Shown here piece by piece: positions 46,997 to 63,412 of a stretch of 64,000 nucleotides of DNA (its first letter is position 1; the number at the start of each line of letters is the position of its first letter). The translations under genes were made by a program, and so were the position numbers. This DNA comes from an uncultured Pelagibacteraceae bacterium (GTDB taxonomy: Bacteria > Pseudomonadota > Alphaproteobacteria > Pelagibacterales > AG-422-B15), in contig CACGAG010000002.1 of NCBI GenBank assembly GCA_902571005.1, positions 1-64,000 of the forward strand. The letters run 5' to 3'. Under the pieces are notes generated by a model. That model had not been told where the DNA came from. It searched no databases and saw nothing but the letters and a program-made list of their open reading frames with translations.

Positions 46997-47425
46997 TTAT
47001 TTAAGCAAATTTTCTTTTATTAATTGATCAATATAATCAAATGTAGATCTAAAAAACTTTTTGTGATCGACTTCGTTTAAGTTCTGTTTAACGGGGTCTT
47101 CAATATTGAAATGAAATGTTTTTGGAGCACCCGGCCAGATCGGACATGTTTCTTTAGCGGCATTTCCACACACAGTAACGACATAATCCATAGAGGGAGA
47201 GTTGGGCTCACCAAATACGTCCCAACTTTTACTATAGAGTTTCTCAGTCGGTATTTTCATATCATCTAATAAATCGAGTGTTTTAGGATTTATTATTCCT
47301 GAAGGTGTGCTACCAGCGCTATAGCCTTTCAGACTTTCACTATATTTATAATTGGTAATTGCCTCAGCTATAATGCTTCTGGCTGAATTTTGCGTACATA
47401 AATATAAAACATTTTTAATGCTCAT
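46997..47425 (-). CDS. arsC: Arsenate reductase (LMW-PTP type)
   Basis: LYLCTQNSARSIIAEA CX5R motif; VVTVCGNAAKETCPIWPG. Confidence 0.92.
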   Translation of the reverse strand: MSIKNVLYLCTQNSARSIIAEAITNYKYSESLKGYSAGSTPSGIINPKTLDLLDDMKIPTEKLYSKSWDVFGEPNSPSMDYVVTVCGNAAKETCPIWPGAPKTFHFNIEDPVKQNLNEVDHKKFFRSTFDYIDQLIKENLLK

Positions 47426-48108
47426 ATACCAAGAGAATATCCAGCAGATCTAATTGTTCTAATTGGGTCGTATTCAAATCCTTCGTTTAATGCTTTTCTT
47501 AATCTTCTGATATGAACATCAACTGTTCTAGGCTCGACATATGGACTTGTAGTCCATACATAATCTAATAATTGTTGTCTTGAAAATACTTTACCTTGAT
47601 TTTCCATTAAAAAACGCAATAAATTAAATTCCGTAGGTCCAAGACTTATTTCTGTTTTATCCCTGGTGACACGATGCGTTGAAACATCTAATTGAATTCC
47701 CTTATAAGTAAGAACTTCATTATAAAAAATAGGTCTTAAGCGTTTGAGTACTGCTTTAATTCTTGCTACTAACTCATTGACTGAAAATGGTTTTGTTATG
47801 TAGTCATCAATTTCAGTTTCAAATGCTCTTAATTTATCTTCTTCTTCTCCTTTAGCTGTGAGCATAATTAAAGGAATGTTCTTTGTAGTTTTATCTTTAC
47901 GTACTCGTCTACACAATTCTAACCCAGAAATATTTGGGAGCATCCAGTCAACGATTATGAGATCGTATTTAATATCACCAAATATACTATCCAATGCGCT
48001 ATCGCCATCAAAGCATACGTCTACATCAAATCCACTAGCTGTGAGATTGTATTTTAATAATTCAACTATTGAGACTTCATCCTCAATTACTAGGATTTTA
48101 GGTTTCAT
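47422..48108 (-). CDS. phoB: Phosphate regulon response regulator
   Basis: OmpR-family receiver+wHTH; ILVIEDEVSIVELLKYNL, SRQQLLDYVW; operon with phoU. Start refined to 48108. Confidence 0.95.
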   Translation of the reverse strand: MKPKILVIEDEVSIVELLKYNLTASGFDVDVCFDGDSALDSIFGDIKYDLIIVDWMLPNISGLELCRRVRKDKTTKNIPLIMLTAKGEEEDKLRAFETEIDDYITKPFSVNELVARIKAVLKRLRPIFYNEVLTYKGIQLDVSTHRVTRDKTEISLGPTEFNLLRFLMENQGKVFSRQQLLDYVWTTSPYVEPRTVDVHIRRLRKALNEGFEYDPIRTIRSAGYSLGI

Positions 48109-48800
48109 TACACCTTTTCCCACTTAATTCTTTTTTCCGACTTACGTTCTAAGGCTTGACCAGTTGTAATGAAGTGAATGTCTTCAGCAATATTTTGAAC
48201 ATAATCTCCTATTCTCTCTATGTTTTTAGCAATCGACAATAAGTGTGAACAGCCTGTAATTGTATCTGGGTCTTCTGCCATCGTCTTAAGAAGATCCCTG
48301 TAAATTGATAAATACAATTCATCAATATCGCCGTCTAAATCCCAAGCATTAATTGCTAGCGTATCTGATTTTTGAACGAAGGCATCTAAAACATTTTTTA
48401 TCATTCTTTGAACGTTCTCACCCATATTGACAATTTCTGAAACCGGCGTGTCGGGCATATTTATTTTTACATTTGCAACTCTTTTAGCAATATTGGTAGC
48501 GTGATCACCCATTCTCTCGAGATCGTTTGCAATGCTTAGTGCCGAAAGTACGGTTCTTAAATCATTAGCAAGCGGTTGCCTCATTGCAATTACTTTGTAT
48601 GTTAAAGCATCAATTTCCTTTTCTAAGGCATCTATTTTATTATCATCTCTTAAAATTTCTTCTGCAAAAGCAGTATCTTTATCACCCAAAGCAACAAGAG
48701 AATTGTGAAGCTGTGTTTCAACCAATCCTCCCATTTTAATTAATGTACTATTTATTAAATCTAATTGCTCATCATAAGATGAAACTATGTGTTCACTCAT
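48108..48800 (-). CDS. phoU: Phosphate transport regulator PhoU
   Basis: ALSIANDLERMGDHATNIAKRV, IERIGDYVQNIAEDI. Confidence 0.96.
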   Translation of the reverse strand: MSEHIVSSYDEQLDLINSTLIKMGGLVETQLHNSLVALGDKDTAFAEEILRDDNKIDALEKEIDALTYKVIAMRQPLANDLRTVLSALSIANDLERMGDHATNIAKRVANVKINMPDTPVSEIVNMGENVQRMIKNVLDAFVQKSDTLAINAWDLDGDIDELYLSIYRDLLKTMAEDPDTITGCSHLLSIAKNIERIGDYVQNIAEDIHFITTGQALERKSEKRIKWEKV

Positions 48801-52308: not shown

Positions 52309-53370
52309 TTAGTCCAGATCGAGTGTTTCTAAGTTAGCAACTCTTGATCTTATATCAGATGCATCACCATCAGATAATGCAACTAAACCGATATCAGTTA
52401 GATATCCATCTTCACCCATTGCATCAGGACTTGTGAAAGCTGCAAGAAACTCTTCAATTCCTGGCACAACACCTACGTGAGCTTTTTTCACATAGAACTG
52501 TAATGGTCGTGCAATTGGGTAAGAATAATCCTGGATACCAGCAAGCGTTGGCTGAATTCCAGTGATCGAAGCAGATTTAATTTTATCTTCGTTAGCTAGA
52601 AGGTAGCTGTAACCAAAGTAACCAAATCTTTCTGGATCCTCTGATAATTTTTGAACTATTAAAGTGTCGTTTTCACCAGCTTCAATAACTCTTCCATCTT
52701 CTCGCACTACTGCACATTTTTTCTTTGCCTTTTCACCGGCATTTTCCCAAAGTGTGTATGCGCCTGCTGCTTTGCAACCTTTTTTCATAATAAGTGAATT
52801 CCAAGCATCTCTTGTACCAGATGTCGGCGGTGCAACTAGGATTTCAATTTTATGATCAGGTAATGAAGCATCAATGTCAGACCATTTTTCATATGGGTTA
52901 TCAATTAAATTTCCAGCAATGACATTACCCTCGCCATCTTTTGCAACATTAGCGGGTACTTTTTCTGCAATTGCTAAAAATAAATGCTCTTGCGTAAAGT
53001 CTGCATCGGCAGCATCTAAGCTATGAGCAAGCGTCAAGCCGTCATTACCAATTGTAATTTCAATTATATCAGTAACACCATTTTTAGCGCATAATGCCTT
53101 TTCCTTACTTTTAATTTTACGAGACGCATTGGTAATATCGGGGTGATCGGTACCAACTCCAGCACAGAATAATTTCATTCCACCGCCCGTACCAGTACTC
53201 TCAATCACTGGTGTATTAAATCCAGTCTTACCAAATCTCTCAGCAACTACGGTTGCATAAGGGTATACAGTCGACGAACCAACGATTTTTATAGTATCTC
53301 TAGCTTGAGAACTGAATGTAAAAATTGATGAAGCGAAAACTGCAATAATCATTATTTTGATTAATCTCAT
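52309..53370 (-). CDS. pstS: Phosphate-binding protein
   Basis: Signal peptide; IVGSSTVYPY, STGTGGGMKLFC, PPTSGTRDAW; start refined to internal ATG after GGAGAAAATA. Confidence 0.95.
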   Translation of the reverse strand: MRLIKIMIIAVFASSIFTFSSQARDTIKIVGSSTVYPYATVVAERFGKTGFNTPVIESTGTGGGMKLFCAGVGTDHPDITNASRKIKSKEKALCAKNGVTDIIEITIGNDGLTLAHSLDAADADFTQEHLFLAIAEKVPANVAKDGEGNVIAGNLIDNPYEKWSDIDASLPDHKIEILVAPPTSGTRDAWNSLIMKKGCKAAGAYTLWENAGEKAKKKCAVVREDGRVIEAGENDTLIVQKLSEDPERFGYFGYSYLLANEDKIKSASITGIQPTLAGIQDYSYPIARPLQFYVKKAHVGVVPGIEEFLAAFTSPDAMGEDGYLTDIGLVALSDGDASDIRSRVANLETLDLD

Positions 53371-53418
53371 TATTTTCTCCATTAAGGTTTAGAATCATTG
53401 CTAATTTATTTTGCCTTG

Positions 53419-53458
53419 ATTACAAAATTATAACGTTTTTGTTACATTTTTATGAACG
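53419..53458 (-). promoter_or_regulatory. Four-unit Pho-box-like array upstream of pstS
   Basis: Minus strand: CGTTCAT-AAAA-ATGTAAC-AAAA-ACGTTAT-AATT-TTGTAAT, exact 11-bp spacing. Confidence 0.82.
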
Positions 53459-54185
53459 TCGGTTTCTCGTTAAAATTTAAATAACTGATTTTATTAAGAT
53501 ATTTAAAGGGAAGGTAAATTAGTGAGAATATAATAACTGTTAACACAGCCAAATAAGGAATATGCATTGGAGGAGATGGAAATATATCCAAAAGTGTGTT
53601 CGCGGCAGGCGTAATCATTAAATACCAATAATTTACATCTTTAAAGAATTGCGAAATATAAATATTTAATCCATAAATTATAGGTAATAAGCAAATGGCA
53701 AACAAAAGAACTCGTAAAACTGACCACCAGGTTAATTGAACCTTCGTGCATACACAGGCATATATTACACCAAGCAGTAATAAACCATGGCCAAAATAAT
53801 AAGTAATATATTCTGCATCAGGAAATGAGAAATCCAAATCTGGTGTAATGATTGCAAGGAAATTTCCACTTAATCCAAAAAAATAACCTACTTCGAAAAA
53901 GAATTTAATATTTGTAAACACATATAACCCCATTGATATTGCGGCTATATGGCAAATGTGTAATGGCAATACGTCGTAAATAGAATGATCATAAAATATC
54001 ACTCGATAAAATGGTTTTATTATCTCATGAGAAATTAATATAAAACCAATTAACAAAAAAATTGATCTAGTTACATTTTTATTATTTATAAATCGAACAA
54101 AGAAAGGAAATAAAATTGAAATAGTCACAATTGTGAAAATTGTTGCCAAATGATGATAACCAAACAAAACAAATTGAGTCGCCAT
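53442..54185 (-). CDS. YwaF/TIGR02206-like membrane protein
   Basis: Multi-TM, LPLHICHIAAI..., YFGHGLLLLGV. Confidence 0.75.
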   Translation of the reverse strand: MATQFVLFGYHHLATIFTIVTISILFPFFVRFINNKNVTRSIFLLIGFILISHEIIKPFYRVIFYDHSIYDVLPLHICHIAAISMGLYVFTNIKFFFEVGYFFGLSGNFLAIITPDLDFSFPDAEYITYYFGHGLLLLGVIYACVCTKVQLTWWSVLRVLLFAICLLPIIYGLNIYISQFFKDVNYWYLMITPAANTLLDIFPSPPMHIPYLAVLTVIIFSLIYLPFKYLNKISYLNFNEKPTFIKM

Positions 54186-54225: not shown

Positions 54226-55320
54226 TTATGAAATGGGTGCAATAGGCAATTCTACTGAAAATGTACTGCCTTGATTTATTTCACTTTTTATATCTAAATG
54301 TCCTCTGTGCTTATTTAAAATATGTTTAACTATGGTTAACCCTAAACCCGTTCCACCGATTTCTTTTGATCTTGCTGCATCTACACGGTAAAAACGTTCA
54401 GTTAATCTTGTTAGATGTTTTGGGTGAATGCCTTCGCTTTCATCTTTAACGCTGATTTTTGATACAAGTTGTGGAAATAGCTTTTTATTATCACTATGAT
54501 CAGTTTGCTTTTTGATTTTTTCTGCCAATATGTCTATTGAGCTGTTTAGTTTTCCATATTTAATCGAATTATCTATAATATTTGTAAAGACCTGTACCAA
54601 CTCATCTTCATTGCCCAATACAAATAAACCCTCACTAAGTTGATGGTTGACTCTTATTTTAATATTCTTTGTCAATGCGTATTCTTTTAGACTTTCCGCC
54701 ACATTATCTATTGTTTTCAATAAATTAACTTTTTTGGTTGGATGAATATGCTCATCAGACTCTATTTTAGATACGACAATTAAATCATCTATCAGTCTTT
54801 TCATGCGAATTGTTTCTTTATCCATAATACCAAGAAACTTAGACATAGATTTTTGATCATCTTTTGCTGGACCTCTTATAGTCTCCAAAAAACCCATGAT
54901 TGTAGCAAGTGGTGTTTTCAGCTCATGACTTACGTTTGCAATGAAAGAAGAGCGTACTCTTTCAATATTTTTTAAAGGAGTTATATTTTTCATGAGAATA
55001 ACATAATTGTCTCTTGTGTTAGTTAATTGGAGATGATTTTTCTCATAACTAATCTCCACATTGTAAAAATTTGTTGATCTAGGTGATAAACTTCCGTACT
55101 CACTATTATATTCAATTATTTCTGTTTCTTTATTTTTATATACATTTTCTAATGCCTCTAAAACTATCGGGCTTCTAATTAAGTTTGTTATATTTTGACC
55201 AGTATAATTATTTTCAAATAAATCTATTGAATGGGAATTTTGAAAAACAATTTTTTGATCGGAATCAAGAACGATGATTGCATCTTCTAGCTTATTAAGA
55301 ATAAAACTGATATTTTCCAT
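54226..55320 (-). CDS. phoR: PhoR-like sensor histidine kinase (PAS-HisKA-HATPase), no TM segment
   Basis: NVSHELKTPLATIMGFLETI H-box; GTGLGLTIVKHILNKHRG; linked to pst/pho genes. Confidence 0.88.
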   Translation of the reverse strand: MENISFILNKLEDAIIVLDSDQKIVFQNSHSIDLFENNYTGQNITNLIRSPIVLEALENVYKNKETEIIEYNSEYGSLSPRSTNFYNVEISYEKNHLQLTNTRDNYVILMKNITPLKNIERVRSSFIANVSHELKTPLATIMGFLETIRGPAKDDQKSMSKFLGIMDKETIRMKRLIDDLIVVSKIESDEHIHPTKKVNLLKTIDNVAESLKEYALTKNIKIRVNHQLSEGLFVLGNEDELVQVFTNIIDNSIKYGKLNSSIDILAEKIKKQTDHSDNKKLFPQLVSKISVKDESEGIHPKHLTRLTERFYRVDAARSKEIGGTGLGLTIVKHILNKHRGHLDIKSEINQGSTFSVELPIAPIS

Positions 55321-61287: not shown

Positions 61288-62295
61288 TTATTTTGCAACG
61301 CGTGATACAGTTTGATGTGACAAAAACAGCTTAGAAACCTCCTGCCAATCAAACTTTTTACTATAATTTATACAATCTGTACGACTCACTTTTCTCGCCT
61401 TATCAATTGAATTAATTAAATTATGATCAAGACAATTATGTTTAAAATTATCAAAAACATCAATTGGACCTGGAACAGGATATGCGGCCACAGGAAGTCC
61501 ACTGGCGAGAGCCTCGATCATGACCATTCCAAACGTATCTGTTTTACTTGGAAATACAAAGATATCTGAAGATGCATAGTACTGGGCCAGTTCATTTCCT
61601 TTCTTCGCTCCTACAAAAACTGCATCAGTATATTTTTTTTCTAATTTTTTCTTAGAGGGTCCATCACCTACAAGTAGTTTTGTGCCTTTTAAATTTAATT
61701 TAAGAAAATCTTCTAATGATTTTTCCTTAGATATTCTTCCTACATATAAATAAATTGGTTTTTCTAAATTGAGATCAATCTTGTTCTTCGGATTAAAAGC
61801 TTTTATATCAACGCCCCTGGACCATTTAACTGTCCTTTTAATTCCATGTGAATTAAGTTCATCTATAATTGAATTAGAGGATACCATTACTGCGCTAGAA
61901 TTTTTGTGAAACCATTTCAAAATTTTATATGTAAAAGATACAGGTATCTTAGCCATCGTGTTTATATATTCAGGAAATTTTGTACAATACGAGGTTGTAA
62001 ACGCATAATTATTCTTTGAACAATAATTCCTAACCGCTAAGCCAATAGGTCCCTCTGTAGCAACGTGTATAAAGTCAGGCTTAAACTTCTCAATGATCAC
62101 GCCAATTTTGAACCAATGATTAATCGCAAGTTTTATTTCAGGATAAATAATCAGTGGAATTGTAATAAATTTATCTGGAGTTATATACCTAACCTCATGT
62201 CCTTGACTTGTAAGTTCATCACCAAGTGTTTGATAAGTTCTAACAACACCATTTATTTGAGGGAGCCATGCGTCTGATGCGATGAGTATTTTCAA
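61288..62295 (-). CDS. GT4-family glycosyltransferase (Agt-like lipid glycosyltransferase)
   Basis: SDAWLPQINGVVRTYQTLGDEL, ATEGPIGLAVR, FPSKTDTFGMVMIEALASGLPVAAYPVPGPIDV; adjacent PlcP-like gene. Confidence 0.85.
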   Translation of the reverse strand: MKILIASDAWLPQINGVVRTYQTLGDELTSQGHEVRYITPDKFITIPLIIYPEIKLAINHWFKIGVIIEKFKPDFIHVATEGPIGLAVRNYCSKNNYAFTTSYCTKFPEYINTMAKIPVSFTYKILKWFHKNSSAVMVSSNSIIDELNSHGIKRTVKWSRGVDIKAFNPKNKIDLNLEKPIYLYVGRISKEKSLEDFLKLNLKGTKLLVGDGPSKKKLEKKYTDAVFVGAKKGNELAQYYASSDIFVFPSKTDTFGMVMIEALASGLPVAAYPVPGPIDVFDNFKHNCLDHNLINSIDKARKVSRTDCINYSKKFDWQEVSKLFLSHQTVSRVAK

Positions 62296-63114
62296 TTAAC
62301 TTAATACCTTTACGGAGTCCTTATGTTTGTTGATAATTTCATACTTTTCAGCGATATCTTTCCAGAAAAGAATTTCCATTGATCCATCAAAATTTTCTAT
62401 CATAAAGGAGCAACTTTCTACCCAGTCCCCATCATTATAGTAATGAACTCCATTTATTATTCGATGTGAAGCATGGTGAATATGTCCGCAAATAACTCCT
62501 TTTAGATTTTTCTTTTTTGCATAACCTGCAACTATTTCTTCGTACTTATTAATGTAAGAAACAGCATTTTTTACTTTTAATTTTAGATACTTTGAAAGCG
62601 ACCAATATTTCAAACCCAATAATAATCTTAATTGATTAAATCTTCTATTTAGCCATAAAGCTAAATCGTATGCGCTAGCGCCAAGATGGGCTAACCAGGG
62701 TGCGATATTGATAATTGAGTCAAATTTGTCTCCATGGAGTATAAGATATTCAGATCCATCTACTGTCTTATGTTTGATTTCATTAACTACTCTAATTTCG
62801 CCTAGTGTTATTGGCACAAATTTTCTAACAAGCTCATCATGATTTCCTGATACATAAAACACTTTAGTTCCATGTCGTGCTTTTCTTAGAATTTTTTGTA
62901 TTACATCACTGTGACTTTGTGGCCAGTACCATCTATTTTTAAGTCGCCACCCATCTATAATATCTCCAACTAAGTATAGGTAATCTGATCTGGTATTTTT
63001 TAAAAAATCAAGCAACTGTTCAGCTTGACAGCCTTTTGACCCTAAATGAATATCTGAAATAAATATGGAACGATATTTTAAGAGAGGAATAACATTATTT
63101 TTTTCGTTGACCAT
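62296..63114 (-). CDS. plcP: PlcP-like phospholipase C (metallophosphoesterase)
   Basis: FISDIHLGSKGCQAEQLLDFL, YLVGDIIDGWRLKNRWYWPQSHSDVIQKILRKAR, SGNHDE, CGHIHHA. Confidence 0.85.
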   Translation of the reverse strand: MVNEKNNVIPLLKYRSIFISDIHLGSKGCQAEQLLDFLKNTRSDYLYLVGDIIDGWRLKNRWYWPQSHSDVIQKILRKARHGTKVFYVSGNHDELVRKFVPITLGEIRVVNEIKHKTVDGSEYLILHGDKFDSIINIAPWLAHLGASAYDLALWLNRRFNQLRLLLGLKYWSLSKYLKLKVKNAVSYINKYEEIVAGYAKKKNLKGVICGHIHHASHRIINGVHYYNDGDWVESCSFMIENFDGSMEILFWKDIAEKYEIINKHKDSVKVLS

Positions 63115-63194
63115 AAATTTGGTAAAAAAGAATCAATCTTCATTACATTACCAATAATTTATGAAAGATTTGTTAAGCTATACTTTCTAGAAAT

Positions 63195-63250
63195 CTGTCA
63201 TAAAATTTTAATATTCTTGTAATTTTTATGACAAAATTAAAAATTATAAT
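63195..63250. promoter_or_regulatory. Four-unit Pho-box-like array with bidirectional layout and rightward -10
   Basis: CTGTCAT(63195) TTTTAAT(63206) TTGTAAT(63217) ATGACAA(63228), exact 11-bp steps; TATAAT at 63245; TATAGC on minus strand at 63182-63177. Confidence 0.75.
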
Positions 63251-63256
63251 TTAATC

Positions 63257-63340
63257 ATTGAGTAACTAGACAGAAGACTGAACTTCCTCATTTAATCCTC
63301 CACCCTTCCAAATATAAATGGGGAAGTTCTTCTCTTATTT
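63257..63340 (+). ncRNA. Candidate PhoB-dependent sRNA (predicted extent approximate)
   Basis: No ORF in region; GAACTTCC(63280)/GGAAGTTC(63322) stem with CCTCCACCC in loop, U-rich tail TTCTCTTATTTC; downstream of TATAAT + Pho boxes. Confidence 0.4.
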
Positions 63341-63412
63341 CAATTAGGGTAATTTGTATATTGGGATCATTATAAGAAAAAAGAGGAAAAATCAGGATTT
63401 TATAAAAAAAAA

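Follow-up and report, generated by a model that had tools for sequence, protein, structure and literature searches.

A candidate Pho-regulated small RNA gene with an anti-Shine-Dalgarno-type loop beside plcP in bacteria of the SAR11 order

In a 64,000-nucleotide stretch of DNA from a bacterium of the SAR11 order (genome of 1.26 Mb, 91% complete), which is called the window here, positions 63245-63334 of the plus strand are probably a Pho-regulon gene for a non-coding small RNA, which would carry an anti-Shine-Dalgarno-type loop. Comparison of the sequences gives good support to the core of this reading, namely that a Pho-type promoter reads rightward into a non-coding hairpin RNA and that the two are inherited together with plcP and agt. 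The architecture of the promoter, the hairpin and the restriction of the element to plcP-bearing genomes support it. The features are the following.

61288-62295, minus strand: agt, family-4 type glycosyltransferase (Pfam PF00534/PF13439)
62296-63114, minus strand: plcP, calcineurin-like phosphoesterase (Pfam PF00149), in the order plcP-agt
63145-63150, minus strand: probable plcP -10, TAATGT or TAATAT (conserved, followed by a hypervariable patch at 63135-63144)
63161-63178, minus strand: probable two-unit Pho box of plcP, GCTTAAC-AAAT-CTTTCAT (10 bp upstream of the plcP -10; weak matrix score)
63195-63234, plus strand: Pho-box-like array of four 7-mers in 11-bp steps (sequence, alignments, pstS-trained matrix)
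63245-63250, plus strand: -10 hexamer TATAAT of the putative RNA gene
63251-63259, plus strand: hypervariable spacer (discriminator) up to the presumed start near 63257-63260
63260-63334, plus strand: presumed small RNA body, with the cassette ending at 63334 (alignment, covariance model, empty-site comparison)
63280-63294, plus strand: 5' arm of the hairpin (fold, alignment)
63315-63329, plus strand: 3' arm of the hairpin (fold, alignment)
63297-63305, plus strand: unpaired loop motif CCUCCACCC

The left part of the window is what we take to be a phosphorus island, in which genes were named from sequence family and gene order. It presumably comprises phnC and other phn genes (C-P lyase) between about 32 and 46 kb, phoB at 47422-48123, phoU, pstB, pstA and pstC between phoB and pstS, pstS itself at 52309-53382 and phoR at 54226-55320, and is completed after phoR by ppx, ppk, a porin gene, agt and plcP. 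That phoB, phoR and the pst, ppk and phn genes share an island with the element supports the reading of the latter as a Pho-regulated RNA gene. Two further Pho-like arrays lie on the minus strand, at 60004-59976 upstream of a small lipoprotein gene and at 61125-61083 upstream of the porin gene beside agt. Furthermore, a gene for a TMEM164-family membrane protein (53442-54185) is located between phoR and pstS, and genomes that lack plcP also carry related genes on the right flank of the cassette site.

An earlier note, made from the sequence alone, had pointed to four 7-mers in 11-bp steps with a TATAAT 10 bp to the right of them, and both descriptions hold. The units are CTGTCAT at 63195, TTTTAAT at 63206, TTGTAAT at 63217 and ATGACAA at 63228 (TTGTCAT on the minus strand), and the hexamer at 63245 sits exactly 10 bp beyond the end of the array, as it does in the pstS promoters. 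A simple pattern of three Pho units gave hardly more matches than the same pattern reversed, such that a matrix including the -10 was used instead. For this, a 7-mer matrix was built solely from the pstS promoter alleles of the genus, and 164 kb (327,260 positions) were scanned for four units in 11-bp steps followed by 10 bp and TAnnnT. The array at 63195 obtained a score of 13.8 and rank 5 of all positions, and the four positions above it belong, two registers each, to pstS, which had been used for training, and to a site lying upstream of phnC. It therefore is the third distinct site in the 164 kb, behind pstS and phnC, and among the sites not used for training only phnC outranks it; 0.2-0.3 such sites per 164 kb would be expected in composition-matched random sequence. 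The proximal unit, ATGACAA, has a poor matrix score in the plus orientation.

Within clade A, 2 of the 40 columns of the array are variable. The -10 hexamer occurs in the 21 genomes that carry the element as TATAAT, TAGAAT, TATAGT, TACAAT, TATTAT, TATCAT or TATGAT, i.e., T1, A2 and T6 are kept throughout while positions 3 to 5 have changed at least eight times. The discriminator that follows is variable in 7 of 9 columns, with indels; among the fourfold sites of plcP, 14 of 85 vary (p = 0.0003). The -10 region of pstS is comparable in pattern (TAAATT, TAATTT, TAAGTT and TATTTT, 10 bp after the last unit). The retention of T1, A2 and T6 amid variable neighbours suggests that this is a working promoter. 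The hypervariable patches, at 63247-63259 for the RNA and at 63135-63146 for plcP, lie at the -10 and discriminator inside a cassette that is otherwise nearly identical, and they could reflect either a hot spot of mutation in the open complex or a retuning of promoter strength.

It had further been proposed that the array is bidirectional and serves plcP and agt through a TATAGC on the minus strand (63183-63178). The rightward half of this proposal stands, whereas the leftward half has become doubtful. TATAGC is present in the window, but it is not kept: TATGGC or TGTGGC takes its place in 16 of 18 clade-A genomes, and TATAGT in clade B. The only other hypervariable patch within 1.15 kb is found at about 63135-63146, and the -10 of plcP is probably the TAATGT at 63150-63145 rather than TATAGC; upstream of it on the minus strand are CTTTCAT (63167-63161) and, 11 bp further, GCTTAAC. 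As plcP thus seems to own a -10 and a weaker Pho box of two units, it is probably the RNA that the strong array mainly serves.

To the right of the promoter, the plus strand contains no open reading frame, as had been noticed before. The right-hand neighbour differs between genomes, yet it is always encoded on the minus strand and points toward the element, and hence a rightward transcript would lead no gene. The stem had been described with 8 bp, and while its presence was borne out, its length is 15 bp (63280-63294 with 63315-63329, including one U.G pair); the loop does contain CCTCCACCC at 63297-63305. On the plus strand, the hairpin (63276-63345) has a folding z of -5.1 and leaves the loop bases unpaired, and for the 89-nt span 63257-63345 the values are z = -2.75 on the plus strand and -0.5 on the minus strand. 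CCUCCAC is invariant and unpaired in 21 of 21 genomes. Four of five stem substitutions preserve pairing, and the G.U states pair on the plus strand only, being A.C mismatches on the minus strand; the covariation measures were equalled by 17-155 of 500 shuffles, and the covariation of the stem appears thin but strand-consistent. With 5 of 70 columns variable in clade A, the RNA body shows no significant constraint relative to neutral divergence (p = 0.09); between the clades, divergence in the leader and in the flanks of the loop exceeds that at the synonymous sites of plcP. The conservation of the RNA does not clearly exceed what the low neutral divergence of the cassette would leave.

The hairpin is single-copy in the genome. 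A search of Rfam 15 gave no family at the gathering threshold and nothing meaningful at relaxed thresholds, and a search of viral contigs for the element gave no match. A canonical U-tract after the stem is absent from the sequence. Among the papers that literature searches returned, none reports this element or an RNA beside plcP.

Within the genus, the element is found in 21 of 44 genomes, which are exactly those with a full-length plcP, and it always adjoins this gene; in a 22nd genome, plcP is present only as a fragment at the end of a contig. A covariance model of the element recovered the same 21, and no others, among 298 genomes of the order, and the stem and CCUCC loop lie beside plcP in all of them, as the earlier note would have it. 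This one-to-one occurrence with full plcP supports the reading as a Pho-regulated RNA gene, as does the block boundary, which falls just after the hairpin. The boundary was located because the right flank starting at 63335 is carried by three genomes without plcP: the agt-plcP-RNA block therefore ends at about 63334, and the part beyond it of a pyrimidine-rich tail, formerly ascribed to the RNA, is flank that also occurs without the cassette. In clade B, the element is present at a different insertion site.

Among block-carrying genomes in which pstS was found, pstS is 97-100% identical, and plcP differs at about 5% of fourfold sites within clade A and at 10.6% between the clades. By these sequence measures, the agt-plcP-RNA block has spread recently. 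Since the cassette is young and its neutral divergence low, conservation alone is weak evidence for the RNA. Across the genus, no pstS match was obtained in 15 of 44 genomes, and plcP is missing from about half. The Pho island seems to be passed on whole from one species to another.

Most other plcP genes inspected in the Pelagibacterales face a diacylglycerol-kinase-like gene across a short spacer without a hairpin. In CP.15, another genus of the order, a hairpin of 16 bp is located between plcP and an arsC-like gene (L048, 2648-2738, minus strand, and the same in L159); its large loop contains C but no CCUCC, and the hairpin is followed by T8. This hairpin is possibly another small RNA beside plcP.

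As to function, we infer transcription, PhoB control and both ends of the RNA from the features above, and consider it likely that the RNA gene is under Pho control. Upon phosphate starvation, PhoB would bind the array at 63195-63234 and recruit RNA polymerase to the -10 at 63245, and transcription would start near 63257-63260 to yield an RNA of about 75-100 nt with an unpaired leader, the 15-bp hairpin and a 20-nt unpaired loop containing CCUCCACCC. The C-rich loop may then, as its likeliest mode of action, pair with the G-rich initiation regions (Shine-Dalgarno-like GGAGG or GGUGG) of some mRNAs and lower their translation, while PlcP and Agt would be swapping phospholipids for glycolipids. 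The proposal of a Pho-driven small RNA tied to plcP is thus sustained as far as promoter, hairpin and co-inheritance are concerned, and an anti-Shine-Dalgarno role of CCUCC is plausible but lacks a target signal. In a target prediction over the start regions of 176 genes on one contig, the energies equalled those of shuffled loops, without enrichment, and a genome scan for the loop complement gave 19 matches versus 13 for the reversed control. Anti-Shine-Dalgarno targeting by the loop is a conjecture, which we hold to be possible rather than probable. The best predicted target, sufC (-22.2), was discarded, since it pairs equally well in genomes without the RNA and the pairing is lost in several genomes with it. 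Hfq was not found in the 91%-complete genome, while a control search did find it in Caulobacter.

The case for a Pho-regulated RNA is weakened by the poor proximal unit, the insignificant constraint on the body, the differences of leader and loop flanks between the clades, covariation that shuffles can equal, the lack of target enrichment, the failure to find Hfq and the missing U-tract, and other explanations of the element must be weighed. There could be a real rightward transcript that acts in cis only, with no trans role for the CCUCC loop: either the hairpin ends transcription arriving from one side, or the RNA, being antisense to the right-hand genes at their 3' ends, insulates plcP from them. 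We regard this as unlikely, although the orientation of the right-hand gene toward the element in every genome, the lack of a trans target signal and the failure to find Hfq would all fit. However, the same RNA is present even though the right-hand genes are unrelated between genomes, the right-hand gene in the window owns a terminator at 63444-63410, it would be odd for a terminator to be made with an activator array of four units, and the invariance of an unpaired CCUCCAC is left unaccounted for. It is improbable that array and hairpin are a by-product of the recent cassette spread, conserved through youth, with the hairpin a border or recombination relic that has no RNA function. The low synonymous divergence of plcP and a cassette border about five bases past the hairpin would be in line with such an origin, but this does not explain why T1, A2 and T6 of the -10 were kept while its other positions changed repeatedly, why the hairpin is single-copy and recurs at the other insertion site of clade B, or why the array fits an independent Pho matrix.

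On the minus strand, GGAGG-ATTAA-ATG (63301-63288) opens a small upstream open reading frame (MRKFSLLSSYSMIKL), and the element might accordingly be a leader of plcP in which the CCUCC loop merely is the complement of a Shine-Dalgarno sequence. The good spacing of GGAGG from ATG in most genomes would favour this, yet we consider it highly improbable: the frame is not conserved, with 15 codons here, seven in L102 and frameshifted ends in L095, L096 and L100, and the inferred plcP promoters lie downstream of it, which would place the mini-ORF outside the plcP mRNA. Moreover, folding of the minus strand is ordinary, and what pairs as G.U in the stem is a mismatch there.

The Pho-regulated RNA proposed here has partial counterparts. 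SmelA075 and SmelA099 of Rhizobiales are alphaproteobacterial small RNAs for which a C-rich anti-Shine-Dalgarno motif in hairpin loops (CCUCCUCCC) was likewise proposed; however, they have three or four such hairpins where the element has one hairpin with a large loop containing CCUCCACCC, and the available part of the source describes no link to Pho and plcP for them (PMC3927594). The alphaR8 family, SisA-D of Caulobacter, shares an anti-Shine-Dalgarno-like, C-rich single-stranded motif (UUUCCUCCCU), but there the motif lies outside the loop, and the family further has a Rho-independent terminator, binds Hfq and keeps a typical neighbour in the genome; none of this was seen for the element (PMC12559287). 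EsrL of E. coli is a similar case of a phosphate-induced small RNA reported to be under PhoB, though its PhoB binding is disputed in the paper that cites it and organism and context differ (PMC10294691). Phosphate-responsive small RNAs are also known in Sinorhizobium (PMC8829014). Putative Pho boxes beside plcP are already known in marine bacteria, where they serve protein genes, whereas here the strongest array is directed away from plcP and toward a non-coding hairpin (PMC4796936).

A bolder version of the proposal is that a mobile lipid-remodelling cassette of the SAR11 order brings along its own PhoB-driven anti-Shine-Dalgarno RNA, which would act without Hfq, lower the translation of phosphorus-costly genes in each new host and have its promoter strength retuned via the hypervariable -10 and discriminator; taken as a whole, we think this rather unlikely to be correct. 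Bacteria of the SAR11 order possess few transcription factors, and their intergenic regions are very short. If the proposed role of the RNA is true, it would link phosphorus sensing, the replacement of membrane phospholipids and the control of translation in very abundant ocean bacteria, and it would mean that a regulatory RNA travels within a nutrient-stress gene cassette.
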